Shown here: positions 33 through 53,384 of the stretch, one piece after another | How positions within the stretch are numbered: position 1 is the first letter of the stretch | How the letters are laid out: each line of letters opens with the position of its first letter | IMG/VR virus record: IMGVR_UViG_3300030104_001707 | Coordinates: 1-53,384 of that record | Source: a virus | Direction: 5' to 3' (one strand) | DNA length: 53,384 nt | The notes under the pieces: model-generated | Told to the model about the DNA's origin: nothing | Databases searched by the model: none | Seen by the model: only the letters and a program-made list of their open reading frames with translations | Position numbers and translations under genes: made by a program

Positions 33-53
33 AGGAACGCAGTGACATGATAG

Positions 54-83: not shown

Positions 84-123
84 AAATTTTGATAGGATTT
101 ATCTAAAATTTTATCTATATTTT

Positions 124-162: not shown

Positions 163-167
163 CTAAT

Positions 168-2345: not shown

Positions 2346-2373
2346 ATGATAGGTGCGCAGCACACCATGATAG
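2346..2373. repeat. hairpin flanked by direct ATGATAG repeats (right copy)
   Basis: ATGATAG at 2346-2352 and 2367-2373 flank GTGC-GCA-GCAC (2353-2363) and ACC. A further ATGATAG lies at 2334-2340. The layout is the same as the element at 54-83, but the stem bases differ on both arms, so pairing is kept (GTCGC/GCGAC there, GTGC/GCAC here). That kind of paired change argues for a structure kept by selection. Confidence 0.7.
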
Positions 2374-3103: not shown

Positions 3104-3382
3104 ATGGCAGAAAAGAACTCTTGGGATAGTTTAAGTAAAAAAGAAAAAGAAGAATTTGGTGATAAAGCTACCTATGAAGCATTTCTTAGAGCTTTAGGAA
3201 CAATGAAATCAGAAAGTGAAGAACAAAGAAGTATGGGTGTAACTCCTGTACCAAAACCTAAACTACCAAAACCTAAACCCAAGAAAAAAGGTATAAATAT
3301 AAAAGAAGGTGGACTTGTACTAAAAGTAACAAAGAAAGGTCCATTATATAAAGGTAAGAAAAGTGGCAACAAGAAGACGTAA
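3104..3382 (+). CDS. small basic hypothetical protein, 92 aa
   Basis: I do not recognise the family. The N-terminal 45 residues are charged and probably helical (MAEKNSWDSLSKKEKEEFGD). The middle is proline/lysine-rich (PKPKLPKPKPKKKG). The C-terminal part has KEGGLVLKVTKKGPLYKGK, a KGG-type motif seen in several other small proteins of this genome. It is the first gene after the two late promoters and the attenuator-like hairpin, with GAGGTG before the ATG. It overlaps the next gene by 20 bases. A DNA-binding or packaging-linked role is possible given its charge and position, but this is inference. Confidence 0.6.
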   Translation: MAEKNSWDSLSKKEKEEFGDKATYEAFLRALGTMKSESEEQRSMGVTPVPKPKLPKPKPKKKGINIKEGGLVLKVTKKGPLYKGKKSGNKKT

Positions 3383-3757: not shown

Positions 3758-4570
3758 ATGGCATCTAATATACAAGCAGAAATAAATAAAAGAAATAAAG
3801 GAATTTCAGACAAACTTTGGAGTTGGTTTAGTACATATATTGATAAAGTGTCTTCAGGGGGTGCAACGCGAAGAGGTAAGCCAATTTCAACCACAAAAGC
3901 TAAAGAGTTAGTAAAGAAAAGTGTAGAGAAAACAGGCTCATTAACTGATGCAAAGAAAGATCTTAAAGCAACAATAGATCCTGTTATAGAAGATTTTAAT
4001 GCGTCTGTAAAAGGAGCTAAAGCTACGGTAGCTGATAAAAAAGCTGGTAAAGAAAAATTTGTTGGCAAAATGAAAAAATCTGTTAAAGATGCAAGAAAAA
4101 AATCAGCGGAAAAAGGAATAGAAGATCTTAATAAAACTGTAACAGGAGCTAAATCTGCTGTAGCAAAAAGAAAAGATGTTGCAAAACTTGATGATGATGC
4201 AATAAAAGCAAAAAGAAGAGCAGATGCGAGAAAAGCATCAAAAAGTCAACCTGACGGTCCTAGTTCTGCACCTAAAGCATCAAAGAAAAAAGAAGGTAAA
4301 TCTGTAAAAGAGTCTTTAAAAGATCAAATTTTTAAACAGGATGTACGCAAATACGGCCCACTTACTGTAGATTCTACAGATAGAGGTATGAGTAAATTTA
4401 TGGGTACTGATGAAGAAATAGCTGAACAAGAGATGGAAGAAGAAATGAACCTCCGCAAGGGCGGTACTGCCAGAAGAAAAGCCTTTGGCAAGGGTGGTAT
4501 GTATAAAGCACCAAAGAAAACATACGGTATGAGAAAAGGCGGTTTTACTCGCAGAGGTGCATCTAGGTGA
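3758..4570 (+). CDS. lysine/alanine-rich basic protein with C-terminal KGG motifs
   Basis: The product has 270 residues. Residues 1-50 look globular (KLWSWFSTYIDKVSSGG). About 50-200 are a long lysine/alanine-rich helical region with repeated VTGAKSAV and VKGAKATV units. The last 40 residues carry LRKGGTARRKAFGKGG and MRKGGFTRRG motifs. The motif RKGGTARR recurs at the end of the 52-aa protein at 36592. The family is unknown to me. The strong positive charge suggests DNA contact, perhaps during packaging or inside the virion. The stop overlaps the GTG start of the small terminase gene (GTGA). Confidence 0.6.
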   Translation: MASNIQAEINKRNKGISDKLWSWFSTYIDKVSSGGATRRGKPISTTKAKELVKKSVEKTGSLTDAKKDLKATIDPVIEDFNASVKGAKATVADKKAGKEKFVGKMKKSVKDARKKSAEKGIEDLNKTVTGAKSAVAKRKDVAKLDDDAIKAKRRADARKASKSQPDGPSSAPKASKKKEGKSVKESLKDQIFKQDVRKYGPLTVDSTDRGMSKFMGTDEEIAEQEMEEEMNLRKGGTARRKAFGKGGMYKAPKKTYGMRKGGFTRRGASR

Positions 4571-4950
4571 AATTATCTTTAACTGAAAAAGAAAGCAAGT
4601 TCCTAGACGCTTTATTTGGCGATGCTAACGGACACTTTCGTACTGCAATGGACATAGCAGGGTATTCTAAAAGCGAGTATCCTGCAAGAATAATTAAACG
4701 GCTTAAGGAGGAAATTGTAGAAAGAGCAGAATATGTTCTGGCTGCAAATGCTCCAAAGGCCGTTATGTCTATGGTAGATATAATAGATGATCCCAGTGCA
4801 TTAGGAAACAGAGAGAAACTGGCAGCATCTAAAGAAGTGCTGGACAGAGTAGGGCTGGTCCGTACTGAAAAGATAGAACACAAAGGCACTCCGTCTGCCG
4901 TAGTGGTTCTACCGCCTCTTAACAAAGACGAAGATGAAGACGAGGAATAA
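4567..4950 (+). CDS. terS: terminase small subunit
   Basis: The 127-residue protein starts at GTG (4567), overlapping the upstream stop. Residues 1-50 have the TerS-type helix-turn-helix pattern (LTEKESKFLDALFG, then AMDIAGYSKS and a basic helix IIKRLKEEIVERAEYVL). A helical oligomerisation-like region follows (APKAVMSMVDIIDDPSALG, then KLAASKEVLDRVGLVRTEKI). The acidic tail is DEDEDEE. Small terminase subunits recognise the packaging site and feed DNA to the large subunit. The gene overlaps the terminase large subunit gene by 17 bases, which supports the call. It was assigned from domain pattern and position, not from a search. Confidence 0.8.
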   Translation: MKLSLTEKESKFLDALFGDANGHFRTAMDIAGYSKSEYPARIIKRLKEEIVERAEYVLAANAPKAVMSMVDIIDDPSALGNREKLAASKEVLDRVGLVRTEKIEHKGTPSAVVVLPPLNKDEDEDEE

Positions 4951-6748
4951 AACCAAACCGATACCAGCAGTAGGCACATTGCCGTATGGGTATGACAAGG
5001 CTGAAAGAGGACAGGATAAATCATGTTATTATCCTGATAAATTTGTACTCACTAAATTAGACGAAGCAATAGTACAAATAAGAGATGGCAGACAGCCAGT
5101 AAGAAAGGTTGCAGGATGGCTAGAGAATGAAACCGATCGTAGGCTATCCGCAACGAGACTTCATAAACTTGCGTGGACTAAAGAGGAGCTTGAGTCGCGT
5201 AGAGAAGAGCGAGAAGCCAACCTCACCAAACAGCAAAAACAGGTCAGTAGGCTCAAAAATACTGTTAAGCAGACAACAATCAAAGCTGAACAGGCAAAGC
5301 GAAGACTCAAGAAAGCACTTAATAAACCTGATCGTGTAGAGAAAGAGAATATAGAGTTTCCTGTAGAAGAGACAGAAGTAAAACAGGAAATTGCTTTTAA
5401 GCCGAATCCAGGTCCACAGACAGAGTTTCTATCTGCTGGAGAACGAGAAGTATTTTATGGTGGAGCAAGAGGTGGAGGTAAAACCTATAGTCTCTTAATT
5501 GCACCATTAAGGTTTGCACATAAGCCTACACACAGAGCATTATTATTGCGTAGGTCAATGCCAGAACTTAGGGATGTTATCTTTCAGACACAACAGATAT
5601 ACCCAAAGGCATTTAAAGGTGCAAAGTTTAAGACACAGGAAAACACTTGGCACTTTCCAAGTGGAGCTAGAATAGAGTTTGGATATGCAGAGAATTTACA
5701 AGATGCCCTCAGATATCAAGGTCAATCCTATACATGGATCGGTGTGGACGAGCTTCCGCAATATCCTAACGCAGATATATGGCATTTTCTACGGTCATCG
5801 TTAAGAACTGTAGATACAAGCATACCTCTTCAGATGAGGGCAACAGGAAACCCAGGAAACGTAGGATCGGCTTGGGTTAAGAAGATGTTTATAGATCCTG
5901 CACCGCAAGGCAAAAGATTTGTAGAAGAAGTCCGTTTTACTGCGAACGGTGAAGAAATAATATCTGGTATTAGCCGTAAGTTTATAGCAGCGTCAGTATG
6001 GGATAATCCGTACTTGACACAAGACCATAGTTATGTATCAATGTTGGGGTCACTTCCTGAAGCAAAACGCCAACAGTTTTTATATGGGAATTGGGATGTT
6101 GTCGAGGATGGAGCGTTTCCAGAATTTGATAAAGAAGTTCACGTTGTCGAATCTTTTAAGATTCCTTCAGGATGGACAAAAGTCAGATCTTGCGATTTTG
6201 GCTATTCTAGTCATTCTGCTGTGCTTTGGGGAGCTATTGATTATGATGATGTACTATGGATTTATAGGGAGTTATATGTTAATCAACTGACAGCAGACAA
6301 ATTAGCATGGGCTATACTGGATGCAGAAGAAGATGACGGTAAGATATATGATGCAGTACTAGACTCCTCATGTTGGGCAAAGCGAGGAGATGTAGGTCCA
6401 TCCATAGCAGAGACACTAAACAGAGAAGGATGCAGGTTCAGACCTTCTGACAGATCTCCAGGATCTAGGGTTGCTGGTAAAATAGAAATGCATAAAAGAC
6501 TGCAAATAGATGAAGAAACAGAAGAACCAAAATTAATAATACTAAGTAACTGCCGTAACTTAATTAGTCAGTTACCTGCATTACCTTTAGATAAACGAAA
6601 TCCAGAAGACGTAGATACAAAGTCTGAGGATCACTTGTACGATGCATTAAGATATATGGTAATGTCAAGACCAATGAATAAATTTTCAGCATGGGAACAT
6701 ATTCCAAAACAACGCTGGAAACCTTCAGATAATATGTTTGGATATTAA
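4934..6748 (+). CDS. terL: terminase large subunit with N-terminal extension
   Basis: The product is the 604-residue packaging motor and nuclease. Walker A is FYGGARGGGKT (about 174-184). Walker B is WIGVDE with D272 and E273. The nuclease domain has D421 (CDFGYSS), D477 (VLDSS) and D566 (DHLYDALRY), the expected three acidic metal ligands. Residues 1-150 precede the ATPase. They contain LPYGYD and a helix-turn-helix-like stretch (about 52-80) similar in style to the recombinase domain of large serine recombinases, then a charged coiled coil (about 83-130). This extension is unusual for TerL. The gene overlaps terS by 17 bases and its stop abuts the portal start. Confidence 0.95.
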   Translation: MKTRNKTKPIPAVGTLPYGYDKAERGQDKSCYYPDKFVLTKLDEAIVQIRDGRQPVRKVAGWLENETDRRLSATRLHKLAWTKEELESRREEREANLTKQQKQVSRLKNTVKQTTIKAEQAKRRLKKALNKPDRVEKENIEFPVEETEVKQEIAFKPNPGPQTEFLSAGEREVFYGGARGGGKTYSLLIAPLRFAHKPTHRALLLRRSMPELRDVIFQTQQIYPKAFKGAKFKTQENTWHFPSGARIEFGYAENLQDALRYQGQSYTWIGVDELPQYPNADIWHFLRSSLRTVDTSIPLQMRATGNPGNVGSAWVKKMFIDPAPQGKRFVEEVRFTANGEEIISGISRKFIAASVWDNPYLTQDHSYVSMLGSLPEAKRQQFLYGNWDVVEDGAFPEFDKEVHVVESFKIPSGWTKVRSCDFGYSSHSAVLWGAIDYDDVLWIYRELYVNQLTADKLAWAILDAEEDDGKIYDAVLDSSCWAKRGDVGPSIAETLNREGCRFRPSDRSPGSRVAGKIEMHKRLQIDEETEEPKLIILSNCRNLISQLPALPLDKRNPEDVDTKSEDHLYDALRYMVMSRPMNKFSAWEHIPKQRWKPSDNMFGY

Positions 6749-31567: not shown

Positions 31568-34500
31568 ATGAAAAATTCTATGGATAATCTTAGCTATGAA
31601 AAACTTTTAGAAAACAAAGAGTTTTTAAATAATACTCGTAATGTATTATACGATAGTTTTGGCGAAGACCATGTTCTAAGTACGGATGAAGAAATTTTAG
31701 ACGCTTTTTATGAAAATTTTAGAGAGGTAGATACTAACACGGTTGATGCATATCAACTTTGGAGTGCTACAAATGGTGATCTTAACGATACTCAAAAAGA
31801 CGAATTAAGACAATCATACGAAGTATATCGCGCATTACCTAGTTTTTGGGAAGATGATTCTGCTTCTAATGTTCAGGCATTTTGGGATTATGCCTCTGCT
31901 ATTTTTACTGATCCTGCCACATATTTAGGAATAGCTACTGGTGGTATTGCTAGTGTTGCAACAAAAGCATCTGCATATGGTGCGATAAGAGCAGGTCTAC
32001 AAACATCCTTACAAGCAGGTCGTAAAGCTACTCTTAACTCTGCTATGGCAGGTGTTGCTACAGATACCGTAGCTAGTGTTTTAACAGATGCAGAAATACA
32101 AGGCGTAGAACGAAGAATAAATTATAGAGAAGATGGCTATGATTTTTCTCAAGCAGGATTAGCTGCTGCCGCTGCTATTGTTCCTGGAGCAGCTATAGGT
32201 CTTACAGGTAGAGCGTTAAAAGGTTTAAGTAAATCTGATACTATGATGCAAAATGTAGCAGAAGGTAAAAGAATTTATTTAGAAAATTCAGAAGCAGGTA
32301 AAGCATTTCTTGATGGTAAAGTAGTTGAGGGTAGTTTTGTTCAAGTTAATGATAAAAACATATTAAAAGGTGATGCAGTAGACCGTATGGCTTATGTAGA
32401 TAGTATTAATACAGATAAAAATACCTATACTGTTAATGTAGGTTTTGATGAGTTAGGTGATGCTATAACTAAAGAAGTAAATATGGATAAAGTAAAATTA
32501 GTTGATCCTTTTGATACTAAAGTTACTAGAAAAATAGAAAGACAAATTCAAGGTGCTGCTAAAATATATAACACTGAAAGAGCGCAATTAGGTTATAAAG
32601 ATTTTCAAAAAGAAATGAAAGAGGTTTTGGAAGCAAGAGGAGTTACTAAAAAACAATTAGAAGAGTTAGATGAAGGCGTTGAATTTGTCTTATCAGAATC
32701 CGCAGTAAAAAAAGTACATGGAGCATTTTTAGATATTATGCAGGATTCTGGTATATCTTATAATCCTAATAAAGCAATATCCGTTATGGTAGAAGATGTC
32801 CTTGCTAGTAACCCTAAAGGATTTGGTACAGATGATTTTGTAAGAATACTGGATTCTCATGGTGTTAGTAACATAGAGATGTTAGGCGTAATGATGGGTG
32901 AAACATTATCAAAAGCCTATAGAGGTACAGTATATAAGTCTGCATCTACATTAGGTAAATTAAGTGGATTAAGTAAAAAAGCAAGAAAACTAGCTATAGA
33001 AAAAGAGTTAGATGTAACTTTTGGAGGAAACTTTCAAAAACTTACAGGTGGAATGCGTACAGAAGCTCAGTTTAGAGGTATAAAAGACGGTAGGCAATAT
33101 GCCGAAGAGGTATTAGGAACAACTGAACTTAGTAAAGAAACAGAAGCATACTACACTGCTTTACTTGCAGAACGAAACAATATAGATAAGATGGTTAAAT
33201 TATATGGTCCTATTGCACACAGAGGAGATCAATGGAACAGAATGATCCGTTTAGGTATGATTGCTCAACCAGCCACAACTTGTCGTAATATTATGGGTGG
33301 TTTAATTAGATCTCCAATGGATTGTACTACAAGAACTTTTGATAATATATTAACAGTGGCTATGTCAAAAATTACAGGAACTACTATTCGTCCAGTTAAT
33401 CTTTCTGATGGATTTGAACATTTAACTTCTTTGTTATCTCCTCAAGAATATAATGAAATGGCTAAGTTAATAATGTCTAAAAAACCTTTAGCTGCTGACT
33501 TAATAAAAGGCCCAGAAGGTTACTTGCAAACCGCTAAAATAGCTCAGACTATGAATGGAGATAAAGGTGGATTTGTAAATAAAGTATTAGGATATGGATT
33601 TGATCCTCTAGAACGTGGTCTAATTCATGCAAACGTACTAAATAGTGTGCAAGATAAGTATATGAAGTCTCAATCTTTTATTGTAGGATTAAGGCAGTCT
33701 ATGTCAAGAGAAAATTTAGATCTTGATGATTTTATAAGAAATGGTAAAATACAAGATATTGATGATCGTTTTATAGCTGACGGTATGCAATGGGCTTTTG
33801 AATATAACTACCAAGCTAACATACGAGGCGATACAGCTTTAACTAGATTTGCTGTAGAAACAATAAACAAGCTATCTAATGTTCCTTATATAGGATCTGC
33901 ACTAGCACCGTTTCCTAAGTTTATGATAAATAGTATGAAATTTATGTACGAACATTCTATTGTAGGTTTACCTGAATCTATAGCAAAAATGAAAAGAGGG
34001 TTTGGAAAAGAAGGTAATCAGTTTTTACAACAAGAAGGAATAAAAGCTCTTAGTAGACAAGCAAGTGGAGCATCTTTATTATTGATGGCATATGCTATAA
34101 GAACATCTGAACTTGGTGGTGAGCTTTGGCATGATCTTATAGATGATACAGGTAATGCACAAGATATAGGCACTTGGTATCCTTTAGCTCCTGCTTTGTG
34201 GTTTGCTGATGGTATAGTTCAATTTGGCGAACAACTAGACGGAAAAAGCGATATGGGAGATTTTAAAGAGGCTTGGCTTTTAGACACTATGAAAGCATTA
34301 GGTGGTCCTTCCAGTAGATCTGGAATATGGAAAGAAATTGATAAAAATTTTCTAGAAGGGATTATATCTGGAGATGCTAACAGTAAAGAAGAGTTACTAA
34401 ATGGTATGGGTAGAGCTATGGGAACTATACTAGGTGCTTTAGCTACACCATTAAAGCTAGGTTCTGAAGTACTTGCAGAAACGAATGCTTTTGGATTTGA

Positions 34501-35257
34501 TGATATGGCTAGAGTACTACATGATGCTAGAAGTAGTCAGGGATTTAAATCTAATTTTTTAGATGCAATTTTTAAAAATGTTCCTTATGGATATTCGATG
34601 TTAAAAAGTCCTTATAGTGGGGTAAGAAGACAAAAAAATGGTACATTTATATTTGAAGAAAATGTAGAGTATTCCAAAGATATAAAAACAGGACAAACAA
34701 CTGTGCCAAGAACTAGATATTCTGTTCTTAATCCAGAGCCTTTAACTAATGTTTCTCCTTTAGGAAAACAAGTTTCTGGTGCATTTAGAAAAAGAAAAAG
34801 AAACTACATAGAAAAAGAATTTGAAAGACTAGGACTTGCAGAGTGGAGATTATTTAAGAGAACTAACATTCCTGATTACGATAGAGAACTAGCAATGTTG
34901 ACAGGTAACTTTGCAGAAAGAATATTACAGGATGCTATAGTGTCTAAAAAATATTTAGATTATAATGATTCAGGTAAAAGAGATATGATTAAAAGCGTAT
35001 TAAATGATGCAAAAGGTTACGTTGCTAAAGAATTTAATTCTCTTTTTCATTTAGGATTGCTAGGATCATTAGATAAATTACCTAAAACCCCTAGAAATAG
35101 CGGTGTAAGGTGGATGCAAGAAAATGGCTATCTTCCTCAATATGAAAATGAAAGAGCAGAATATATAAGTAACTTTGAACTTACGAAAGATGAAACTGCT
35201 TTACTAGTAGAATTAACTAAAATATATAAATCTAAAAAAGCTAAGAGTAATTTATAA
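31568..35257 (+). CDS. very large internal virion protein
   Basis: The largest gene of the window encodes 1229 residues. It is mostly helical. Alanine/glycine-rich hydrophobic stretches occur near residues 105-215 (YLGIATGGIASVATKA, then GLAAAAAIVPGAAIGLTGRA) and again near 750-860 (YIGSALAPFPKFMINSMKF). These could cross or dock to membranes. Podoviruses commonly end their structural operon with such a giant core protein that is ejected to form a channel for DNA. No transglycosylase motif was seen in the N-terminus. Its stop shares a base with the next start (TAATG). Confidence 0.7.
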   Translation: MKNSMDNLSYEKLLENKEFLNNTRNVLYDSFGEDHVLSTDEEILDAFYENFREVDTNTVDAYQLWSATNGDLNDTQKDELRQSYEVYRALPSFWEDDSASNVQAFWDYASAIFTDPATYLGIATGGIASVATKASAYGAIRAGLQTSLQAGRKATLNSAMAGVATDTVASVLTDAEIQGVERRINYREDGYDFSQAGLAAAAAIVPGAAIGLTGRALKGLSKSDTMMQNVAEGKRIYLENSEAGKAFLDGKVVEGSFVQVNDKNILKGDAVDRMAYVDSINTDKNTYTVNVGFDELGDAITKEVNMDKVKLVDPFDTKVTRKIERQIQGAAKIYNTERAQLGYKDFQKEMKEVLEARGVTKKQLEELDEGVEFVLSESAVKKVHGAFLDIMQDSGISYNPNKAISVMVEDVLASNPKGFGTDDFVRILDSHGVSNIEMLGVMMGETLSKAYRGTVYKSASTLGKLSGLSKKARKLAIEKELDVTFGGNFQKLTGGMRTEAQFRGIKDGRQYAEEVLGTTELSKETEAYYTALLAERNNIDKMVKLYGPIAHRGDQWNRMIRLGMIAQPATTCRNIMGGLIRSPMDCTTRTFDNILTVAMSKITGTTIRPVNLSDGFEHLTSLLSPQEYNEMAKLIMSKKPLAADLIKGPEGYLQTAKIAQTMNGDKGGFVNKVLGYGFDPLERGLIHANVLNSVQDKYMKSQSFIVGLRQSMSRENLDLDDFIRNGKIQDIDDRFIADGMQWAFEYNYQANIRGDTALTRFAVETINKLSNVPYIGSALAPFPKFMINSMKFMYEHSIVGLPESIAKMKRGFGKEGNQFLQQEGIKALSRQASGASLLLMAYAIRTSELGGELWHDLIDDTGNAQDIGTWYPLAPALWFADGIVQFGEQLDGKSDMGDFKEAWLLDTMKALGGPSSRSGIWKEIDKNFLEGIISGDANSKEELLNGMGRAMGTILGALATPLKLGSEVLAETNAFGFDDMARVLHDARSSQGFKSNFLDAIFKNVPYGYSMLKSPYSGVRRQKNGTFIFEENVEYSKDIKTGQTTVPRTRYSVLNPEPLTNVSPLGKQVSGAFRKRKRNYIEKEFERLGLAEWRLFKRTNIPDYDRELAMLTGNFAERILQDAIVSKKYLDYNDSGKRDMIKSVLNDAKGYVAKEFNSLFHLGLLGSLDKLPKTPRNSGVRWMQENGYLPQYENERAEYISNFELTKDETALLVELTKIYKSKKAKSNL

Positions 35258-45165: not shown

Positions 45166-45194
45166 CTTATAACACATTAATTTTGATTTGTCAA
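45166..45194 (-). promoter_or_regulatory. leftward sigma70 promoter between polA and the DNA-binding gene
   Basis: On the minus strand TTGACA (45194-45189) is followed by a 17-base spacer and TATAAG (45171-45166), five of six matches. The -35 box overlaps the polymerase stop codon (the TGA inside TTGACA). Transcription would begin near 45159, just before the gene at 45139. It would boost the nuclease, nucleotide and reductase genes downstream. Confidence 0.8.
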
Positions 45195-47269
45195 GCACAA
45201 TCTTCTTGTTCCATCCAATTTTTTCCAATCGACATTTCGACATCAAGAGGAATAAATTTTTCTAAACCAAATCTTTTTTCTGCTTCATCTTGCGCTTTAA
45301 TTAAACAAATAGGAGCTATCTGCTTTACTTCCTCAATCTCATCTGGATGACAATCTACTATAACAGAATCGTGTACCGTGTTGATAACTAAGCTATTTAG
45401 TCCACGTTCCTTTAGCTGTTTATGTAGTAGTATGACACCAAGAGGAACGATCTCAGCAGTGGCTACAGACTGAACTGGATAGTTTACGATTTGAGTTTTA
45501 GAAGATGCGTTACCCTGTTTAGTACGATAGACATTCGGAAATGCAAACTGTCTACCTGTAGCAGTTGTAACAACCTCATTCTCAATCGCTTCAGACTGTA
45601 AAATTTTGTGCCAGTTGAACACTCCTGCATACTTTCCAAAGAACTCCTGAAAGTATACTCGTTGTGCAAATGTACCCTGCGATCCTCCGTATAGAGGTCT
45701 GAAAGTAGATGCTTTGGCAGCACCACGTTCTGTTGGTTCTCCATTATCTGTAAGAACCTTTGCCGTATATGCATGGACATCGAAGCCCTCCCTTACTTCT
45801 TGTTTTATTCTCTCATCCTTGGCAAGGATACCTGCAACCCTAAACTCTAATTGAGAATAATCTACTTCAAGTAATTCCCCACCTTCAAACCTACTGACAA
45901 ACGCCTTGCGAACAGGGAACAGTTTACCTTTAGGCATATTTTGTAGGTTGGGATTACTACTGCTAAGTCTACCTGTAGCTGTTATACATTGGTTAAAGTT
46001 AGCGTGAAGTATAGTATCACCTTCTCGTATACCTTTTTTAATACCTTCAATAAACGAACTACGATATGTATCTATAGCAGACAATCGTATCAAAGAGTTA
46101 AGAAACTTCTTGACTTCTGGATTTTTTTGCGTCTTTTCCAAATCAACAAGAGTATTCTTATCAGTCTTAAAACCTCCTGCTGATGCTAATGCAACAATCG
46201 GGGTCACTTGAAGTCCTGCCCTTTCTGGCAACTCTTTGTATTCAAAACCTGTACCGTTACAGTGATCACACTTAGTCATATTTTTAAACTTAGTGCCATC
46301 CTTTTTAATCTTATAGTATCCACCTCTGCCAAAACAGTGTGAACATTTCATTGCCTGAGTTTTATATGCAGGAGTAAAGCAGTCCTCTACGCATTTAACA
46401 AAACCTGAGTCCATCATCTTTGGTCTGCGCTTTGGTTTACCTCTAGCATCTACTCCTATGTTCATGTATTCACGCCAAGATTTTTTATTATTTAACTTGT
46501 ATGAATAAATAACCTGAGACAGTTGCTCTGGACTACTTAGATTGATTGGTGTATCTCCTACAAGTTTTTTAACTGTAGTATTTAAATAGTGTTGCAACTC
46601 TCCTTGTTCTATCTCATACTCTTGGTCAACCTTGTTAAGAACATCTATATCAATAGCCATACCTGCTCTCTCTATGTCAGTAAGCACATCACAGAACTCA
46701 CACATAAGATCACGAATAGCTACGAGTGAGTGGTTTGAGGCTTTACTAAACCTCTCTTGTTGCTTCTGAAATACTTCAGCAGTTGCAAGAACATCATTAG
46801 TTAAATAAGTTTCTTGATCAAACAAAGACATATCACTGTAGTTCAAACCTTTGTTGAGTGTATCTCCAAGAGAACTTTCTTTACGAGTAACTTTATATTT
46901 CTCAGCTAGACCATCTAACGAAAGTTTATTTCGTAAGCCTTTGCTAAGTACATACTCATTAATCATAGTATCAATAATCTTAACATCACATTCTATTCCT
47001 ACCTCACGCAACCAAGCTACATCAAACTTAGCATTATGGGCTACGATATACTTAGCACCTTTTATCTCCTCTTCAAAATCATCGAGATCAAAATTATTAG
47101 ATGATTTGTTTTTTATTTGTACAGTTAAACCACCTATTTTAGATCCATCCAAGTTTCTTTTTAAGTAACCTATGGCTACTAACTCGTTGTATTTATTATA
47201 TGGTGAAGGATCTTTTCTATCTCCCTTCAAATCAACTTCCAAGTCTACAACTAATACATAATCTTCCAT
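45191..47269 (-). CDS. polA: family A DNA polymerase with internal DnaJ-type zinc module
   Basis: The product is the 692-residue replicative polymerase. The 3'-5' exonuclease has D9 and E11 (VVDLEVD), D83 (HNAKFD) and D159 (YLTNDV). A zinc-finger insertion lies at about 305-345, with CSHCFGRGG and CDHCNGTG (C309, C312, C334, C337), the CxxCxGxG pattern of DnaJ. Polymerase motif A is EVDYSQLE (D470). Motif B is R515 to Y527-G528, with F523 at the position of E. coli Phe762. Motif C is VHDSV (D634). No 5'-3' exonuclease domain is present. The DnaJ-type insert is a known trait of HMO-2011-like marine phages. It starts seven bases after the SleB-type gene ends. Confidence 0.95.
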   Translation of the reverse strand: MEDYVLVVDLEVDLKGDRKDPSPYNKYNELVAIGYLKRNLDGSKIGGLTVQIKNKSSNNFDLDDFEEEIKGAKYIVAHNAKFDVAWLREVGIECDVKIIDTMINEYVLSKGLRNKLSLDGLAEKYKVTRKESSLGDTLNKGLNYSDMSLFDQETYLTNDVLATAEVFQKQQERFSKASNHSLVAIRDLMCEFCDVLTDIERAGMAIDIDVLNKVDQEYEIEQGELQHYLNTTVKKLVGDTPINLSSPEQLSQVIYSYKLNNKKSWREYMNIGVDARGKPKRRPKMMDSGFVKCVEDCFTPAYKTQAMKCSHCFGRGGYYKIKKDGTKFKNMTKCDHCNGTGFEYKELPERAGLQVTPIVALASAGGFKTDKNTLVDLEKTQKNPEVKKFLNSLIRLSAIDTYRSSFIEGIKKGIREGDTILHANFNQCITATGRLSSSNPNLQNMPKGKLFPVRKAFVSRFEGGELLEVDYSQLEFRVAGILAKDERIKQEVREGFDVHAYTAKVLTDNGEPTERGAAKASTFRPLYGGSQGTFAQRVYFQEFFGKYAGVFNWHKILQSEAIENEVVTTATGRQFAFPNVYRTKQGNASSKTQIVNYPVQSVATAEIVPLGVILLHKQLKERGLNSLVINTVHDSVIVDCHPDEIEEVKQIAPICLIKAQDEAEKRFGLEKFIPLDVEMSIGKNWMEQEDCA

Positions 47270-47275
47270 GTCACC

Positions 47276-47683
47276 TCACTTATAAAATATATGATCACCA
47301 ATTTGTCTTACTTTTACTTTGTACTTAGCCCACCAAGGATCTACCTTCACACTATGATAATGTGTAGCACCTTTTACGGTATCTGTCAAGCCATAATATA
47401 CTTTTTCTGCAACTTCTAATGAATTTAGCCATGCTATTTCATCTTTAGGCTTGTCACTAAGACCGTCACAGTACCAGCTAAACTGACAGCGATCCTTAAT
47501 AGGATAATTAACAGACCAAGAATATGTTGGCCCTTGAAACACAACCTCGCACACAGTATTAGGATATTTTTCTGATTTTACTCGTTCTAATACTACCTGA
47601 CTTACTGCTATCTGACCCTCAATAGGCTGATTACGAGATTCAAAATAAATATTTAATGCTAAACAAGTTATTGCTTCAATCAT
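47276..47683 (-). CDS. SleB-type cell wall hydrolase
   Basis: The 135-residue protein has the hydrolase_2 pattern: ALNIYFESRNQPIEGQIAV with E15 as catalytic acid, then VVLERVKSEKYPNTVCEVVF and QFSWYCDGLSD. The family (SleB, CwlJ) cuts peptidoglycan glycan strands. No signal peptide is present. Unlike the lysozyme it lies in the early leftward operon between a small gene and the polymerase. It could open the wall early, help lysis, or act during DNA entry if it is packaged. The start overlaps the upstream gene end by eight bases. Confidence 0.87.
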   Translation of the reverse strand: MIEAITCLALNIYFESRNQPIEGQIAVSQVVLERVKSEKYPNTVCEVVFQGPTYSWSVNYPIKDRCQFSWYCDGLSDKPKDEIAWLNSLEVAEKVYYGLTDTVKGATHYHSVKVDPWWAKYKVKVRQIGDHIFYK

Positions 47684-47897
47684 TATTTTTATTCCCTAAG
47701 TTTACATCTCTACAAAAGTTATTTTGTAATTTATTTATCATTTTGTTTTTATACTCTTCAGGATACCAATCAGGTCTAAAATCACACATATAATCTAGCT
47801 GTTGCATTTTTTCAACATAATTTTTTTCAGCGTAAGATAATTTATGACCTTCAGATTCTAATTTTTTTAAATCTAAATAAACTTCATCTAAAATCAT
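47676..47897 (-). CDS. hypothetical protein, 73 aa
   Basis: The 73-residue protein is helical and charged, with one striking tract (YMCDFRPDWYPEEYKNKMIN) and an asparagine-rich end. It has two cysteines. The family is not recognised. Its start overlaps the stop of the upstream gene by 4 bases and its end overlaps the next gene by 8, so it is translationally coupled. Its position suggests an accessory early protein. Confidence 0.55.
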   Translation of the reverse strand: MILDEVYLDLKKLESEGHKLSYAEKNYVEKMQQLDYMCDFRPDWYPEEYKNKMINKLQNNFCRDVNLGNKNND

Positions 47898-48121
47898 TGA
47901 CCTACCCTTTCAATATTGATATTCCAATCTTTAGCTACAAAATTACCTCTGACTTTAGCACTCTTACCTAGTCTATATATTTGTTTATAATCTAAACCAT
48001 GCATAGATGCAAGTATTTTAGCAGTTTCTATATTCCAATTAGGATTACTCTTAGCAGAATACCAGATAAACTCCAGTATACTGTTATTGTATAATTGTCT
48101 TTGAAGCTCTCTTTTATTCAT
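47894..48121 (-). CDS. hypothetical protein, 75 aa
   Basis: The 75-residue basic protein has an N-terminal helix (MNKRELQRQLYNNSILEFIW) and a helix-turn-helix-like middle (TAKILASMHGLDYKQIYRLG). It ends with a basic strand. The HTH-like pattern could bind DNA, but this is weak. It is the first gene after the promoter at 48165-48193, following a hairpin at the presumed 5' end of the RNA. As such it could be an early regulator. Confidence 0.55.
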   Translation of the reverse strand: MNKRELQRQLYNNSILEFIWYSAKSNPNWNIETAKILASMHGLDYKQIYRLGKSAKVRGNFVAKDWNINIERVGQ

Positions 48122-48140
48122 AAGTAATCCTAATAAGGTT

Positions 48141-48162
48141 GTATCCCCCCGAAGGGGAATAC
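48141..48162 (-). other. stable UUCG hairpin at the presumed mRNA 5' end
   Basis: Read leftward, GTATTCCCC pairs with GGGGGATAC across a TTCG loop (nine pairs, one G-T). UUCG is an unusually stable tetraloop. The promoter at 48165-48193 puts the start near 48158, inside the first arm. No T-run follows, so it is more likely a 5' stabilising hairpin than a terminator. Confidence 0.7.
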
Positions 48163-48164
48163 TT

Positions 48165-48193
48165 TATATATCACATATTTATCAAGTTGTCAA
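48165..48193 (-). promoter_or_regulatory. leftward sigma70 promoter within the tail of a small gene
   Basis: On the minus strand TTGACA (48193-48188), a 17-base spacer and TATATA (48170-48165). The -35 box lies within the codons of the 49-aa gene (KTLDNLINM), so the promoter overlaps its 3' end. It would start transcription near 48158 for the SleB-type and polymerase genes. Confidence 0.7.
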
Positions 48194-48320
48194 GTGTTTT
48201 TTCATCTTCATCTGGAATATTTTTAAATGGGTCTGCTTTCCAGCAGTCACACTCAAGACACATTACATCAGGATCAGGATGAACACAACTCTTCATATCA
48301 ATAAAATCACTAGTCAACAT
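48171..48320 (-). CDS. small cysteine-containing protein, 49 aa
   Basis: The frame starts at the ATG at 48320 (11 bases inside the end of the helicase gene) and ends at TGA 48173-48171. The product begins MLTSDFIDMKSCVHPDPDVM and continues CLECDCWKADPF. Four cysteines (C-x8-C-x2-C-x-C) could form a small zinc site. The rest is acidic. The start overlap suggests translational coupling to the helicase. The last codons contain the -35 box of a promoter. The function is unknown. Confidence 0.6.
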   Translation of the reverse strand: MLTSDFIDMKSCVHPDPDVMCLECDCWKADPFKNIPDEDEKTLDNLINM

Positions 48321-49518
48321 ATCTAGATACCTCTGGTTCTATGACAGTGGTGCAGGTTCCATGCTTACCTCCTAGCTTATTCTTGCTAACGTAGATATGC
48401 CTGAGTTTATTATCCTCACCACTATCTTCTTGCTCCTTGCCAATGCCGACAATAAGATCAGCTTCAGCTGCCTTACCCACACGGCTACCTGCCATCTGAG
48501 TAAACCTAAGAACAGTTCTGCCATCTGCTTCTGCATTTGCCTGAGACACTCCTATAACTGCACAAACATGTTTCTTGGATAATGTTCTGGCAGACCTGTA
48601 TATCTCACCTAGTCTGATGTCATCTCTGGCATAGTTTCCACCAATCTGCATCTTATCTAGCTGATCAATACCTACAATGTCAGGCTTGTGCTTGGCAATC
48701 AACTGGTCAAGTTCTTCCATTGAGGGAACTTCATCAGTATTAAGAAACACACACTGATTACGGTATACATCCCACAAGTTATGTGCTTTCACTGTGTCAG
48801 CAGTTATCTGTGCATCAGTCATACCTGTAAAAGAACTTACTGCTCTCAGTGCAGTCCTCTCAACAGGTTCCTCATTACCTAGTATCATTACCTTCGCACC
48901 TTGGGCCATGAAACCTTTCGGAGCAAACAGCGTAGATATAAGAAAGGCTGTTTTACCAGTTTCAACCAAAGCAAAGATAGCAGAGAAGGTCGAGGGGCCG
49001 ATTCCTGGACAGATATCCCTAAGTCCTTTGAGGTTCCATTTGTATTTGGAAACATCTCTAGTAGAGTGGAGTAAAGATGCAACGTCATGTTTAATCTCCT
49101 GTATTGTTTCTCTTGGCATAAAGTTTTCCTGATAACGATCAATTAAATCAGTAACTTTATTCAGATCATTAACCTTGTTATCCATCATGGCAATGCCAAG
49201 ATCAGCTAACTGTCTGCCAAAGTATGCTTTGAATTGATCCTTCAAAACATCTTGTGCTACATCCTCACCAATATCTTTTGGTAAAGATCGGACTAACATC
49301 ATCATAGATTTCTTCTGGCTGGTAGTCATTGTTCTAAACTCACTGAACAATACCTGTTCTACTTCAGCAGGGGTCAAGTCTCTGCCATACCTAGCATGAC
49401 CTAACTCAATGCTACGCCATATCTTTTTAGCTTCATTCTCAAAGAAATCTATTGCTATAAGATGTCTGTTTTGCTCATAAAATCTATGAGATAAAAATAG
49501 TCCTAGTAAATCATTCAT
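48310..49518 (-). CDS. DnaB-like replicative helicase
   Basis: The 402-residue protein has the RecA-type DnaB core: Walker A-like ALVETGKT (183-190), VMILGNEE, Walker B PDIVGIDQLDKM (D285), VIGVSQANAEADG and a final beta segment (HIYVSKNKLGGKHGTCTTVI). It lacks the first glycine of the usual GxxxxGKT loop, having alanine there. The N-terminal half (about 1-150) resembles the primase-interacting part of DnaB. It would unwind the fork with the primase encoded next to it. Two tiny genes lie between this gene and primase. Confidence 0.88.
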   Translation of the reverse strand: MNDLLGLFLSHRFYEQNRHLIAIDFFENEAKKIWRSIELGHARYGRDLTPAEVEQVLFSEFRTMTTSQKKSMMMLVRSLPKDIGEDVAQDVLKDQFKAYFGRQLADLGIAMMDNKVNDLNKVTDLIDRYQENFMPRETIQEIKHDVASLLHSTRDVSKYKWNLKGLRDICPGIGPSTFSAIFALVETGKTAFLISTLFAPKGFMAQGAKVMILGNEEPVERTALRAVSSFTGMTDAQITADTVKAHNLWDVYRNQCVFLNTDEVPSMEELDQLIAKHKPDIVGIDQLDKMQIGGNYARDDIRLGEIYRSARTLSKKHVCAVIGVSQANAEADGRTVLRFTQMAGSRVGKAAEADLIVGIGKEQEDSGEDNKLRHIYVSKNKLGGKHGTCTTVIEPEVSRYVD

Positions 49519-49519
49519 A

Positions 49520-49600
49520 TTATTCTCCTGCTAACAACATTAAAAAAACTGCACCAAAACATATACCAATGATATGCCAGTTATCAAGTATCTCCATCAT
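49520..49600 (-). CDS. tiny membrane peptide, 26 aa
   Basis: The frame starts at ATG 49600 (AGGTAGG just before it) within the end of the 55-aa gene and stops at TAA 49522-49520, two bases before the helicase start. The product MMEILDNWHIIGICFGAV continues to FLMLLAGE, one membrane helix. AGGAG within its last codons serves as the helicase ribosome site. The function is unknown. The short length makes it tentative. Confidence 0.45.
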   Translation of the reverse strand: MMEILDNWHIIGICFGAVFLMLLAGE

Positions 49601-49751
49601 TTTTCCTACCTGGTCTAATAATGTGTAGAGTTACGTTACCTGCTTCACTCTCATACCATTGAGGGTTCCAAGGTTGAGGACAGGTATGATACCATTCAAA
49701 CAGTCTTGCCATGTCAGCATCCCATCTTAAAGGTTTATCTTTATCAGTCAT
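49584..49751 (-). CDS. small hypothetical protein, 55 aa
   Basis: An ATG at 49751 overlapping the primase stop (ATGACTGA) opens a 55-codon frame ending TGA at 49586-49584. The product begins MTDKDKPLRWDADMARLFEW, contains YHTCPQPWNPQWYES and ends with a polar tail. It is rich in tryptophan. It is tightly packed between primase and helicase, overlapping both the primase gene and the tiny membrane peptide gene. The family is not recognised. Confidence 0.6.
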   Translation of the reverse strand: MTDKDKPLRWDADMARLFEWYHTCPQPWNPQWYESEAGNVTLHIIRPGRKNDGDT

Positions 49752-50508
49752 TTAATACTCCTTTCGGGTTTTCTTTTGGATCTACTTCTAATAATTTTAC
49801 ATTTGCCCTAGTAAACTGTGCTATCCTATTCTTCATACGAATAGCTTTAGATGACGCATCTTTATCAAGACACACTATAACATAGGGATACTTTATCACA
49901 ATGTCAAGTACCTCATTAGATAAATTTGTACCCAACAATGCTAAACCTATACCGTGTTGCGAAACTGCAACAGCAGATGCAGAATCCTCAACGACATAAC
50001 AAGTTTCTCCTTCACCACAAATAAAAGGCAAACCTGAGTTAGAATATCTATGCCATTTAGCACCATACTTAGATAACGATCTGCCTACAGCATCAATAAT
50101 CTTAGGCGTTATGGTTGGCAGACTTCCTTCATTTATTTTAACGTCAAAGATTGGAAACACTGCCCTGTCAAGTTTTACATCGTGATACAGTTGAACTTTA
50201 TCTGTATTAATATTATTTTCATTACAGTATCTTGTCATCTTCTTAGGCAGATATACAGAGAAGTGATCTGGTATTTTGAACTCCTGTTTTTTCTGACTCG
50301 GCAGTATGATAGATTTTTCTCTGATGTACCTGCTAGAAGACAGCATCCTTTTCTTTCCAGACACATTGCATCCAGCTTTATAACAGTTATACAAAACTAT
50401 GCCATCAGTTCTGGTTGCAGTAAATGTTTTAACACCACCACAACTAGGACAATTAATCCTAATCTTCTGATACTCCATTAGATCGTCAAACTCTGGTAAA
50501 TCAAACAT
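49744..50508 (-). CDS. DNA primase (zinc ribbon plus Toprim)
   Basis: The 254-residue protein has an N-terminal zinc ribbon (INCPSCGGVKTFT and YNCYKAGCNVSG; C20, C23, C42, C47) and a Toprim domain. The Toprim domain has CYVVEDSASAVAVS (E174) and VIVCLDKDASS (D215, D217), the metal-binding acidic residues. This is the compact phage primase that makes RNA primers for the family A polymerase. No helicase domain is attached; the DnaB-like helicase is a separate gene downstream. Zinc ribbon and Toprim are closely spaced, as in related marine podoviruses. Confidence 0.92.
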   Translation of the reverse strand: MFDLPEFDDLMEYQKIRINCPSCGGVKTFTATRTDGIVLYNCYKAGCNVSGKKRMLSSSRYIREKSIILPSQKKQEFKIPDHFSVYLPKKMTRYCNENNINTDKVQLYHDVKLDRAVFPIFDVKINEGSLPTITPKIIDAVGRSLSKYGAKWHRYSNSGLPFICGEGETCYVVEDSASAVAVSQHGIGLALLGTNLSNEVLDIVIKYPYVIVCLDKDASSKAIRMKNRIAQFTRANVKLLEVDPKENPKGVLND

Positions 50509-50509
50509 A

Positions 50510-50617
50510 TCAAGAATCCAATAGTTGTCGTTTGTTTTGTCTCTTCAAAAGGTTCTTACGTCTTTTATCTTCAATCACTCGCTTATGAAATAGATTGTCA
50601 TTCAAAGCTATCGCCAT
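50510..50617 (-). CDS. tiny basic protein, 35 aa
   Basis: The ATG at 50617 is preceded by a good AGAGGA site in the preceding overlapping gene. The 35-residue product begins MAIALNDNLFHKRVIEDKRR and ends KRQLLDS. It is strongly basic. The frame is also open further upstream, but the longer version would overlap all of the acidic gene at 50598-50765 and lacks a good start. Two bases separate it from primase. The function is unknown. Confidence 0.55.
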   Translation of the reverse strand: MAIALNDNLFHKRVIEDKRRKNLLKRQNKRQLLDS

Positions 50618-50765
50618 AGGATTCCTCTTCCTTGAGGCTCTCAAAATCTTCGATGATCTCAGCATTTTCCCTTTCCTCTTCTTGTTTGATGTCATTATAA
50701 GTATCCTCAACATAGTCTCTCAGTATTTCTTCAATATCCTGAGAGGTTCTTTTACGCTGTATCAC
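50598..50765 (-). CDS. small acidic protein, 55 aa
   Basis: A GTG at 50765 directly follows the TAG of the upstream gene. The frame ends with TGA at 50600-50598. The product begins MIQRKRTSQDIEEILRDYVE and continues DTYNDIKQEEERENAEIIED. It is helical and very acidic after the first ten residues. The exact abutment to the upstream stop and the overlap with the next ATG favour a real coupled gene. The family is unknown. It was chosen over the competing frame on the same strand because of spacing and ribosome-site fit. Confidence 0.55.
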   Translation of the reverse strand: MIQRKRTSQDIEEILRDYVEDTYNDIKQEEERENAEIIEDFESLKEEESYGDSFE

Positions 50766-51041
50766 CTAATCCTCTCCCTGAATATTACTGTTCCAACGCT
50801 TTTCCAAAGACTGAAATATTAAAGCGTATCTTTGCTCCTCACTTATACCAGTAATATCATTCAGTCTGTCGAATAAAATCAATATAAGTGTATCAACAAG
50901 AGCTTTAACTCCCTCATCAGTCCATCCTTCATCATAATCCTCGCTCCAGCCATCAAAAACTCCAACGTTAATTGCTTTGCTAAAATCATTCCAGGATGGC
51001 TTGGCATCTAATTTGTTCAAATAACTTCTCCATTTATACAT
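50766..51041 (-). CDS. hypothetical protein, 91 aa
   Basis: The 91-residue acidic protein (MYKWRSYLNKLDAKPSWNDF, then GWSEDYDEGWTDEGVKALV) is helical, with many tryptophans and a hydrophobic helix LILILFDRLNDITG that may be amphipathic. The family is not recognised. It lies between a DUF932-like protein and the small genes before primase, with a fair AGGG site before its ATG. It probably acts early in infection. No domain was seen. Confidence 0.6.
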   Translation of the reverse strand: MYKWRSYLNKLDAKPSWNDFSKAINVGVFDGWSEDYDEGWTDEGVKALVDTLILILFDRLNDITGISEEQRYALIFQSLEKRWNSNIQGED

Positions 51042-51053
51042 AATTTTTCCCTT

Positions 51054-51902
51054 CTATGCAACTAACTTTAAAAACTCTGGATGTTCTATCCATTTGGCTA
51101 CATCTTCATTACGCTTGAACTGACGCTCCAGTGTATTATCATTGGCAGTCTGGCGAAACCCAAAGCGGTCATCATGTGTAGCATACTGAGTGAATGCAGA
51201 GTATACAGACCAAGCATTTGCACCTCGTATCTCAAACTCACTTAGCACAGAGTTAAGCATATTCTTTGATGCTCTCTTTGGTAGCATAGTTTCAAGCGCA
51301 TCTTTTAAACGTACCACAGATATAGGTGTTTGTGCAAGTTTCTGACACCATTGAGTGTGATCAATAAAACGATCATAGATACCTTCCATCTCATATGTGA
51401 TACGGTTCATATCAAAGTGTCTGGTATTCTTCTTTCTTATTTTATTGTAGTCACCAGATACCATACCGTTAGTGCAGAAGAAATCAATAGCACCACTAAT
51501 CACATTATTAGATGTAAGACCATCGACACCATGCCAAGCATACAATGTCAGAGCAGTATCAGTCTTATGCTTATTTGTCTCAATGGTAGCACGATGATTA
51601 TTGAATGTTACTTTCTCCAATGCCCATGCACCATTACGAGATATTCTAGTGTCGATCTCTACATCATTATCTTTGTCATAGAAATCCTCATCATCGAATC
51701 TCAACTCCTTACTCCATGCCTCTCGTATTGGGCCAAAGAAATCTGGATGACTGACACCACCAAAGTCTTTACCGACTACACCAATAGCCTCATCAGTATC
51801 AGTGCGAATAACATACTTACGTTCTGGAAATCTTTCCAGTGGAGCATATGCTATATCAAAGTCTGCTTGTCCAAAGTCATTCATGTCTACAGTATTAATC
51901 AT
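51054..51902 (-). CDS. DUF932-like protein
   Basis: The 282-residue protein has an N-terminal beta-rich half (YAPLERFPERKYVIRTDTDE and RISRNGAWALEKVTFNNHRA). The later part has GAIDFFCTNGMVSGDYNKIR, then a helical part (LKDALETMLPKRASKNMLNS). The order NG[ML]-x-GD and the surrounding pattern are typical of DUF932 proteins in phages and plasmids, whose function is unknown. They often lie in early operons or near DNA metabolism genes, as here. I propose it from pattern and placement. Confidence 0.7.
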   Translation of the reverse strand: MINTVDMNDFGQADFDIAYAPLERFPERKYVIRTDTDEAIGVVGKDFGGVSHPDFFGPIREAWSKELRFDDEDFYDKDNDVEIDTRISRNGAWALEKVTFNNHRATIETNKHKTDTALTLYAWHGVDGLTSNNVISGAIDFFCTNGMVSGDYNKIRKKNTRHFDMNRITYEMEGIYDRFIDHTQWCQKLAQTPISVVRLKDALETMLPKRASKNMLNSVLSEFEIRGANAWSVYSAFTQYATHDDRFGFRQTANDNTLERQFKRNEDVAKWIEHPEFLKLVA

Positions 51903-51942
51903 AGTATTTATCCTCTCTTCCTAATATGTGGACCCATAAGCA

Positions 51943-52539
51943 TTAGTACTTAGGGTATTCATTGTTTATATCATAGCGTAAAGCATTACGCAATATCTTT
52001 TTTTCTTTTTTTGTACCAATAAAATAAACGTAACGATGTTTAGCACTACGATTAATTCTATTAGTTCTGTCTCCTAGATGATGTCTACTGTGTTTACCAT
52101 CCTTACCAGCCATGTCAGTACGCTTTTTAGTCGTACCAGTAAAGAGCCAGTTGGTAGCTTGATACACTATACCTGCATGATCTTGGGCAGTGTCGGCATA
52201 CGATACAACTACTTTAGGAGTGGGCAACATCTTGAGTGAGCGAGAAACTAAGAACGATGCTTCGTTTGGCAGATTATCTCTGAGTACCAATCTGTTTAGT
52301 TCGATAACATCTGATCTATGTTCCTCACCACAAATACCCTTGCATAAAGACGGTGATGCTGGACTGCCATAAGATACCATGCCCACCATTTCATCGTGAC
52401 GATACAGGCCATAAGCATAGCTAATACTAGGCATACGTTTAGCATAGTGGATATTGAGTATCCAGTGTTTAGTTTCAGAATGTAGACATGGACGTATTTC
52501 GTATTCGCTTTGCATTTGGTTATTCCATCCGATAAACAT
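51943..52539 (-). CDS. Mom-like DNA modification protein
   Basis: The 198-residue protein has YGLYRHDEMVGMVSYGSPAS, ICGEEHRSDVIELNRLVL, VVSYADTAQDHAGIVYQA and NWLFTGTTKKRTD, with a basic C-terminus. The pattern is that of the GNAT-related Mom family, named after phage Mu Mom, which changes adenines in DNA to a carbamoylmethyl form and blocks restriction. No Com-like regulator was seen nearby. In this phage it would protect its DNA in hosts with restriction systems. AAGGAG precedes the ATG. The match is by motif memory, not by search. Confidence 0.75.
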   Translation of the reverse strand: MFIGWNNQMQSEYEIRPCLHSETKHWILNIHYAKRMPSISYAYGLYRHDEMVGMVSYGSPASPSLCKGICGEEHRSDVIELNRLVLRDNLPNEASFLVSRSLKMLPTPKVVVSYADTAQDHAGIVYQATNWLFTGTTKKRTDMAGKDGKHSRHHLGDRTNRINRSAKHRYVYFIGTKKEKKILRNALRYDINNEYPKY

Positions 52540-52550
52540 TTGATTACTCC

Positions 52551-52754
52551 TTATACTAAGATGTCCAAGTTAGTACCACGATTAGTATCTACTGGTGGTG
52601 GTGGTCTAGTAGGTACTAGGTTGTCTACCTTTTTAGCAGATGGGTAGTGATGTTCTTCCACATGTTTAATGTGTGGTGTAGACTTCCAAGGTACATAGAT
52701 GTCTCTACCTATAAAGTCCTGCACCAGTATGTGATATACACTGTCAATGCTCAT
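52551..52754 (-). CDS. small hypothetical protein, 67 aa
   Basis: I chose the ATG at 52754 (AAGGAG seven bases upstream). A TTG further upstream would overlap the previous gene. The product begins MSIDSVYHILVQDFIGRDIY and contains SAKKVDNLVPTRPPPPVDTN. The end is proline-rich and probably flexible. It lies between the Mom-like and the Pyr_excise-like genes. The family is unknown. It may be an accessory of the modification enzyme. Confidence 0.6.
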   Translation of the reverse strand: MSIDSVYHILVQDFIGRDIYVPWKSTPHIKHVEEHHYPSAKKVDNLVPTRPPPPVDTNRGTNLDILV

Positions 52755-52765
52755 TAATAACTCCT

Positions 52766-53254
52766 TTATATCCAATCTGGTTGTGGTCTATTTGTCCAAT
52801 TAAGTATGTGTGCCTTATCTGATTTGTAGTATGCACGATAAGCATCTACATAGTCAAGTCTTTTATGCTCATCAGGCATACATTGTGGTGGTGTAGTATG
52901 TAGTCTGTAGTCCTCATCAAAGTCATCATAGAACATAAAGTCTGCAATGTTCTTGAGTATGGCAGTAGACTTGTGATTTTTACCATATCTGTATTTATAC
53001 TCAGCACCTATATGAAGACCGTGTAGTAATGCCCATGACATATTAGCATCATTCTCTCTGACCCATACAGTCATAGGATGGTTCTTGTACGCTGGTTTAT
53101 AAATACGATTAGTAATATCCTCATCAGGAAAACACCATTCATGTATGGCGGTACTACACATTTGAGCAGTCTCCAACACCATTTTAACAACGTGTTTATC
53201 ACACAGTTGTTCGGCAGATTTGAACGGACAACGATCAATAAAGAATATGTTCAT
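52766..53254 (-). CDS. pyrimidine dimer DNA glycosylase-like protein
   Basis: The 162-residue protein opens MNIFFIDRCPFKSAEQL and CDKHVVKMVLETAQM, followed by KPAYKNHPMTVWVRENDANM and a helical C-terminal part. I know this family as widespread in phages, often annotated as pyrimidine-dimer glycosylase (Pyr_excise) or left hypothetical. The biochemical function is not proven. As a first gene after a strong leftward promoter it is made early. Repair of UV damage would suit a marine phage. The ATG at 53254 follows GGAGAA. Confidence 0.6.
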   Translation of the reverse strand: MNIFFIDRCPFKSAEQLCDKHVVKMVLETAQMCSTAIHEWCFPDEDITNRIYKPAYKNHPMTVWVRENDANMSWALLHGLHIGAEYKYRYGKNHKSTAILKNIADFMFYDDFDEDYRLHTTPPQCMPDEHKRLDYVDAYRAYYKSDKAHILNWTNRPQPDWI

Positions 53255-53290
53255 TAATTTTCTCCAAAAGTTTCTAATTAATTTCTATAA

Positions 53291-53319
53291 ATAATAACAC
53301 AAATAATACATACTGTAAA
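53291..53319 (-). promoter_or_regulatory. leftward sigma70 promoter of the replication operon
   Basis: On the minus strand TTTACA (53319-53314), a 17-base spacer and TATTAT (53296-53291). Each box is one base off consensus. The start would be near 53284, 30 bases before the gene at 53254. The 21-bp repeats lie just upstream of the -35 box, where an activator could bind. Confidence 0.75.
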
Positions 53320-53330
53320 TAGTTTTTATA

Positions 53331-53372
53331 TTTTTTTTGGCTCGGCAGATATTTTTTTTGGCTCGGCAGATA
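53331..53372. repeat. two tandem 21-bp repeats, T8-GGCTCGGCAGATA
   Basis: Two exact copies (53331-53351 and 53352-53372) of eight T residues followed by GGCTCGGCAGATA. A further copy with seven T opens the window at position 1. The true number of units in the genome is unknown, since an assembler would collapse a longer array. The repeats lie upstream of the leftward replication promoter and next to the ATGATAG hairpins. Confidence 0.9.
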
Positions 53373-53384
53373 TGGGGTTTTGAT
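53353..53384. repeat. right copy of 32-bp terminal repeat
   Basis: The last 32 bases equal the first 32. The repeat covers 20 of the 21 bases of the second tandem unit plus TGGGGTTTTGAT. It supports a closed circular or terminally redundant map. Confidence 0.9.

Follow-up and report, generated by a model that had tools for sequence, protein, structure and literature searches.

What does a short, perfect tandem repeat at the very ends of a viral contig do: does it mark a genome terminus, an origin, a control site or simply a fault of assembly? The window analysed here is the whole of record IMGVR_UViG_3300030104_001707 (53,384 nt), and its repeat had been described in a first-pass annotation as a 21-bp array, likely collapsed, that might lie at a packaging end, an origin or an upstream activating site. 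Of these options the last fits best: immediately beyond the array, on the minus strand, comes a promoter that is preserved in nine related contigs. We infer that the array is probably part of a regulatory region carrying sites for a putative regulator of that leftward early promoter. The repeat itself comprises the following:

53331–53351, minus strand: promoter-proximal 21-bp unit, T8-GGCTCGGCAGATA, exact copy
53352–53372, minus strand: distal 21-bp unit, T8-GGCTCGGCAGATA, exact copy, the same as 1–20 once the circle is closed
53350–53341, minus strand: core ATCTGCCGAG of the proximal unit, spanning about −66 to −57 relative to the inferred start
53371–53362, minus strand: core of the distal unit

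Tandem Repeats Finder called the array at 53328–53373 (period 21, 2.2 copies, 100% match), in an intergenic position upstream of gene 52766–53254. A perfect tandem of 46 bp is clearly beyond chance, as 89 of 100 dinucleotide shuffles held no perfect tandem at all with a period of 10–60 and the longest in the remaining 11 was 24 bp. The only other perfect tandem of such a period in the circle is a 15-bp repeat (30 bp) at 3249–3278. The core GGCTCGGCAGATA occurs exactly three times in the record (8–20, 53339–53351 and 53360–53372). The 32-bp terminal overlap noted earlier is exact, with 1–32 identical to 53353–53384, and because the window ends overlap in this way, the left-end unit is the second right-hand unit seen again. 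Thus, the two exact units at the right end stand, while the left-end unit is not a separate third copy. Closing the circle gives 53,352 bp, with two units and unique sequence on both sides, so collapse need not be assumed. No hairpin folds from the array itself: on neither strand was folding better than in shuffled sequence (z −0.71 and 0.10).

One could conceivably regard the array as a product of assembly, its true form being longer or variable in copy number across the population, with no further function. The window is indeed broken within the array, a place where related contigs are interrupted as well. However, the right end crosses both 21-bp units and continues into 12 bases of unique far flank, the two flanking genes stand 265 bp apart once the circle is closed, matching the 262 bp found in the unbroken contig of the closest relative (L001), and every spanning relative holds at most three copies of the TCTGCC site. 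The first two of these observations rule out a collapsed long array as the default, and the earlier suggestion of collapse is not supported; the broader assembly explanation is very improbable.

The contig ends also raise the matter of packaging. The site was found in nine other viral contigs (L001, L002, L081, L097, L098, L099, L101, L104 and L181), and when their ends were compared, three of the nine (L081, L097 and L101) stopped at the site, a sign of variability there or of difficulty in assembly. Together with the window, these contigs all stop within 45 bp of one another, 91–133 bp upstream of the first gene; a shared stop of four contigs of 5–53 kb is unlikely to have arisen by chance, and if virion DNA were linear, its ends would interrupt assemblies at a single point. 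A physical end of the genome or a packaging site, of the pac, cos or short-terminal-repeat type, would account for this, but the other six relatives (L001, L002, L098, L099, L104 and L181) read through, and the breaks are staggered through the repeats. Moreover, the terminase genes (4567–6748 in the window) lie 3.3–6.7 kb away, and HMO-2011 was deposited as a circular genome. In phage phiM6, whose TerL is related (40%), the published description predicts a terminally redundant genome with pac at position 1 and terL at 1082, about 1.1 kb downstream (PMC6256558). A packaging end, as the first-pass annotation had offered, is therefore highly unlikely. Because the stops are staggered and six relatives run through, we read them as repeats and sequence variability hindering assembly. 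A repeat at a contig end need not mean a genome terminus.

By its sequence, this marine phage is HMO-2011-like. The best matches of its terminase large subunit were HTVC033P (55% over 84%), CRP-738, CRP-212 and other HMO-2011-type phages, while all 11 records matching its primase were of the HMO-2011 type. Gene order is likewise shared with HTVC033P, HMO-2011 and the CRP phages. Phages of this type have been described as both dominant and widespread in the ocean (PMC9038755). A megablast search of 45191–53384 against the phage collection matched no record.

The array stands before a leftward block of early genes, and the features of this junction are as follows:

53291–53319, minus strand: σ70-like promoter, TTTACA-N17-TATTAT with an extended −10 (TGT); 10/12 consensus, TG present, kept in relatives
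53262–53265, minus strand: GGAG ribosome-binding site, from the sequence
52766–53254, minus strand: first gene behind the promoter, 162 aa; phrog_624, with a weak match to pyrimidine-dimer glycosylase
130–164, minus strand: intrinsic terminator (15 pairs) behind gene 168–374, separating that gene from module A

Read along the minus strand, the order is gene 374–168, the terminator-like hairpin (164–130), a cluster of CTATCA sites here termed module A (95–29), the two 21-bp units, an A/T tract, the promoter (53319–53291), the GGAG sequence and gene 53254–52766. The terminator search found one such element against a shuffle mean of 1.2. The promoter match alone is not significant, with two promoter-like sites in the region compared with 3.8 in shuffles, and the weight of the promoter call lies in its conservation among relatives and not in the single match. 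Behind the first gene the block is tightly packed, with gaps of 52 bp or less, as far as the primase at 49744; a helicase follows 225 bp past the primase on the same strand, and then come a 188-bp gap, small genes and a polymerase. The block also contains a gene for Mom-like DNA modification (51943–52539; Pfam PF25680, phrog_1384). Elsewhere in the window, two promoter-like sites on the plus strand (2755–2783 and 2932–2961), each with 12/12 consensus and TG before the −10, point towards the rightward block, which holds the terminase and virion genes.

In all nine related contigs the promoter is present as TTTACA or TTTACT, a 17-bp spacing and a TA...T −10 preceded by TGn. The spacing is thus 17 bp in the window and in 9/9 relatives, within the 16–18 bp criterion for σ70. 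Upstream of it, a TCTGCC site lies 29–34 bp from the −35 in the window and in all eight relatives that reach far enough (L101 ends before the site and was left out of this count). Copy number varies: L001 and L098 have a single site, L002 and L081 have two, the cut contig L097 has at least two, and L099, L104 and L181 have three. The spacing of the copies varies as well (21 bp in the window, 25 bp in L081, 26 bp in L002, and 22 and 12 bp in L099 and L104), and the proximal TCTGCC stays in place throughout; these differences in spacing rule out a conserved helical phasing of the units. Two relatives, L001 and L098, have a palindromic form of the site (TCTGC-N4-GCAGA and TCTG-N6-CAGA, respectively), centred at about the same place, as would be expected for a dimeric binder. 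The nine contigs amount to about five lineages, with L097, L099, L104 and L181 lying close together and likewise L081 and L101, so the fixed positions are partly inherited by shared descent.

Not every relative shares the arrangement. Five contigs with 66–74% identity in the first gene (L003, L004, L005, L105 and L116) have unrelated upstream sequence without the promoter or sites, and the upstream sequence of many more distant first-gene relatives (L006–L018) is also unrelated. The exact 21-mer matched one other viral contig, L081, at one place. Two copies of ATCTGCCGA spaced 3–18 bp apart occur in 58 viral contigs, five of them within the group (L081, L097, L181, L182 and L256); none of the other 53 encodes any of the five neighbouring proteins searched, and one has a chance promoter-like match.

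The number of sites changes quickly from one relative to the next. L001, the closest, has a single TCTGCC and a single CTATCA at the array locus, and its identity to the window is 97.3% in the gene behind the promoter, 92.3% in the small gene that precedes the spacer and 68.3% in the spacer itself. Within the spacer, the terminator part is near identical, whereas 30-bp windows in the module drop to about 40–60%. At about 2850–2890 of L001, the module of the window gives way to direct repeats, AT-rich and about 11 bp long (ATTTTAGATAA, ATTTTAAATAA and others).

How might such an arrangement work? No RNA polymerase was recognised among the proteins scanned, so the leftward early promoter would be expected to be read by the host RNA polymerase, with the array region controlling its use. 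With a start placed seven bases past the −10, at about 53284, the centres of the proximal and distal ATCTGCCGAG copies would fall at −61.5 and −82.5, respectively. Class I activators work from sites near −61.5 at σ70 promoters. Like the arrays of sites for such activators, the locus has a site at about −61.5, further copies upstream and a palindromic form in two relatives; unlike them, it has a fast-changing site number, a module of hairpins and heptamers further upstream and a regulator that is so far putative. The repeated ATCTGCCGAG sites, the nearest at about −61.5, would be bound by this sequence-specific protein, and its effect would be activation rather than repression. No helix-turn-helix or other regulator was recognised among the proteins scanned. 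In the HMO-2011-type group papers checked the word "promoter" does not occur, and a literature search found no paper combining "HMO-2011", "promoter" and "stem-loop".

The 21-bp array is, in fact, the promoter-proximal end of a larger CTATCAT/hairpin module, which is the unusual part of the region and has a counterpart about 2.3 kb away:

29–95, minus strand: module A, five CTATCA sites (29–34, 48–53, 55–60, 78–83, 90–95)
61–73, either strand: module A hairpin, GTCGC-GTA-GCGAC (minus strand GTCGC-TAC-GCGAC), flanked by two CTATCA sites
2335–2373, minus strand: module B, three CTATCA sites (2335–2340, 2347–2352, 2368–2373)
2353–2363, either strand: module B hairpin, GTGC-GCA-GCAC (minus strand GTGC-TGC-GCAC), with a stem unlike that of module A in both arms

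CTATCA thus clusters at two places in the window, each upstream of leftward genes, those behind module B being 1877–2197 and 1358–1816. Five CTATCA sites on one strand within 200 bp, as in module A, compare with a maximum of three in 100 shuffles. A reading frame with a TTG start and no family match (2236–2526) overlaps module B. The same putative regulator would probably also bind the CTATCAT/hairpin module upstream of the array, and the position of module B before another leftward block could let it act on both. A compact candidate region of control at two early blocks offers a direct handle on the timing of transcription or replication in such phages.

Related contigs carry such modules as well. 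In L001 and L183 a hairpin module lies upstream of their own copies of gene 1358–1816, and a pair of hairpins lies upstream of the L002 counterpart of gene 554–1324. In L099, L104 and L181 the hairpins form a chain, with GGTC/GACC and GAAC/GTTC as stems. Across the group, neighbouring CTATC[AC] sites delimit 32 distinct intervals, of which 11 contain a stem of at least four pairs; when the intervals were shuffled 2000 times, this number averaged 1.24 and peaked at 7. The loops and the closing C-G pair are constant (C-TNY-G on the coding strand, one tetraloop apart), while the stems differ on both arms. Folding was clearly better than that of shuffles in L002 (z −4.26) and L183 (z −3.12) and moderately so in module A (z −1.71 and −1.99) and L099 (z −2.13); the module B stretch alone folded no better than shuffles (z 0.47 and −0.55). 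Four viral contigs matched the module A hairpin pattern (L180, L181, L182 and L183), and no GTDB genome contig did. A known RNA element was ruled out by the absence of any Rfam match in the window at gathering scores.

Six named HMO-2011-type phages differ in having no heptamer/hairpin cluster in the stretches examined. Palindromes of another kind lie near early genes in HMO-2011 and CRP-1. In HMO-2011 (L087, 1–432 and 1183–1549, and the end of L088) they accompany several of these genes, AGTCCGACAGCGGACT being an example, and CRP-1 (L176) has GTCCAAYGTTGGAC; other members of the type seem to use palindromes of their own.

The main rival to a regulatory reading is a replication origin, in which the repeats and heptamers would be iterons bound by an initiator, the A/T tract would be the site of unwinding, the hairpins would help to load helicase or primase, and transcription from the promoter would activate the origin. 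Iteron-type origins combine short direct repeats and AT-rich DNA with replication genes downstream. The locus resembles them in each of these respects, as direct repeats, AT-rich DNA and hairpins lie upstream of a block whose last gene is the primase, the helicase and polymerase genes coming next on that strand, and the spacer of L001 is filled by AT-rich 11-bp direct repeats. The A-tracts at the array are also strongly phased, to a value reached by 0.11% of the genome's 100-bp windows; this phasing is not kept in relatives, so a role for curved DNA is not supported as a general one. For about 4 kb around the array (from about 52.3 to 2.5 kb) GC skew stays close to zero, though the genes there still run leftward. 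However, the skew shows no sharp flip and does not pinpoint the array, flipping instead with gene orientation near 2.5–3 kb. Nor was an initiator protein recognised among the proteins scanned, several early proteins being without any match, and the irregular spacing (21 bp here against the 25, 26, 22 and 12 bp of relatives) departs from the regularity of iterons. Promoter control would account at least equally well for two modules per genome, each lying ahead of genes. On this balance, an origin is rather unlikely, and control of the early promoter is the reading we retain.

Small hairpins ahead of early genes also call to mind phage N4, where hairpin promoters are used by a virion RNA polymerase; by analogy, the hairpins and not the σ70-like sequence would start early transcription here. 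In both cases small, GC-rich hairpins with three-base loops lie upstream of early genes (PMC4496689), here at two early blocks, and on the plus (template) strand their loops, GTA and GCA, sit within GCGNAGC cores that, with a stem of at least four pairs, occur nowhere else in the genome. Yet N4 requires a purine at −11, the loop centre (PMC4496689), and the loop centres in the window are T and C. The large virion-region proteins matched no polymerase in Pfam or PHROGs, searches that could miss distant homologues, and a 1229-aa protein had no PDB match and lacked the HD-motif C pattern. Moreover, CTATCAT direct repeats flank the hairpins and an ordinary promoter stands beside the array, unlike the N4 arrangement. 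The polymerase search and the loop-centre base speak against an N4-type promoter, and we give this explanation almost no credence. The 1229-aa protein, encoded in the virion region at 31568–35257, has no match in Pfam, PHROGs or PDB and shows weak tblastn matches in seven HMO-2011-type phage records.

A bolder form of the regulatory reading is that arrays of mini-hairpins and heptamers control early transcription in a small HMO-2011-type group, with hairpins extruded by negative supercoiling acting as the switch at both early blocks, a new phage or host factor reading them and the 21-bp repeat serving as its docking site. We regard this as improbable in its full form. Literature searches for mini-hairpins and for upstream repeats returned nothing on HMO-2011-type phages.

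A general link between clusters of short repeats and the GP88-like gene (554–1324) was also considered. A 7-mer present at least four times within 160 bp was found at 17 of 42 GP88-like loci, against 8/75 and 15/74 in controls and 29/54 in a set picked for repeats, a link that is a lead given that coding repeats were retained and some loci are near duplicates. Among relatives of this gene, dense short repeats of different kinds lie nearby, for example at 1071–1150 of L187, 2144–2260 of L192 and 3313–3480 of L200.
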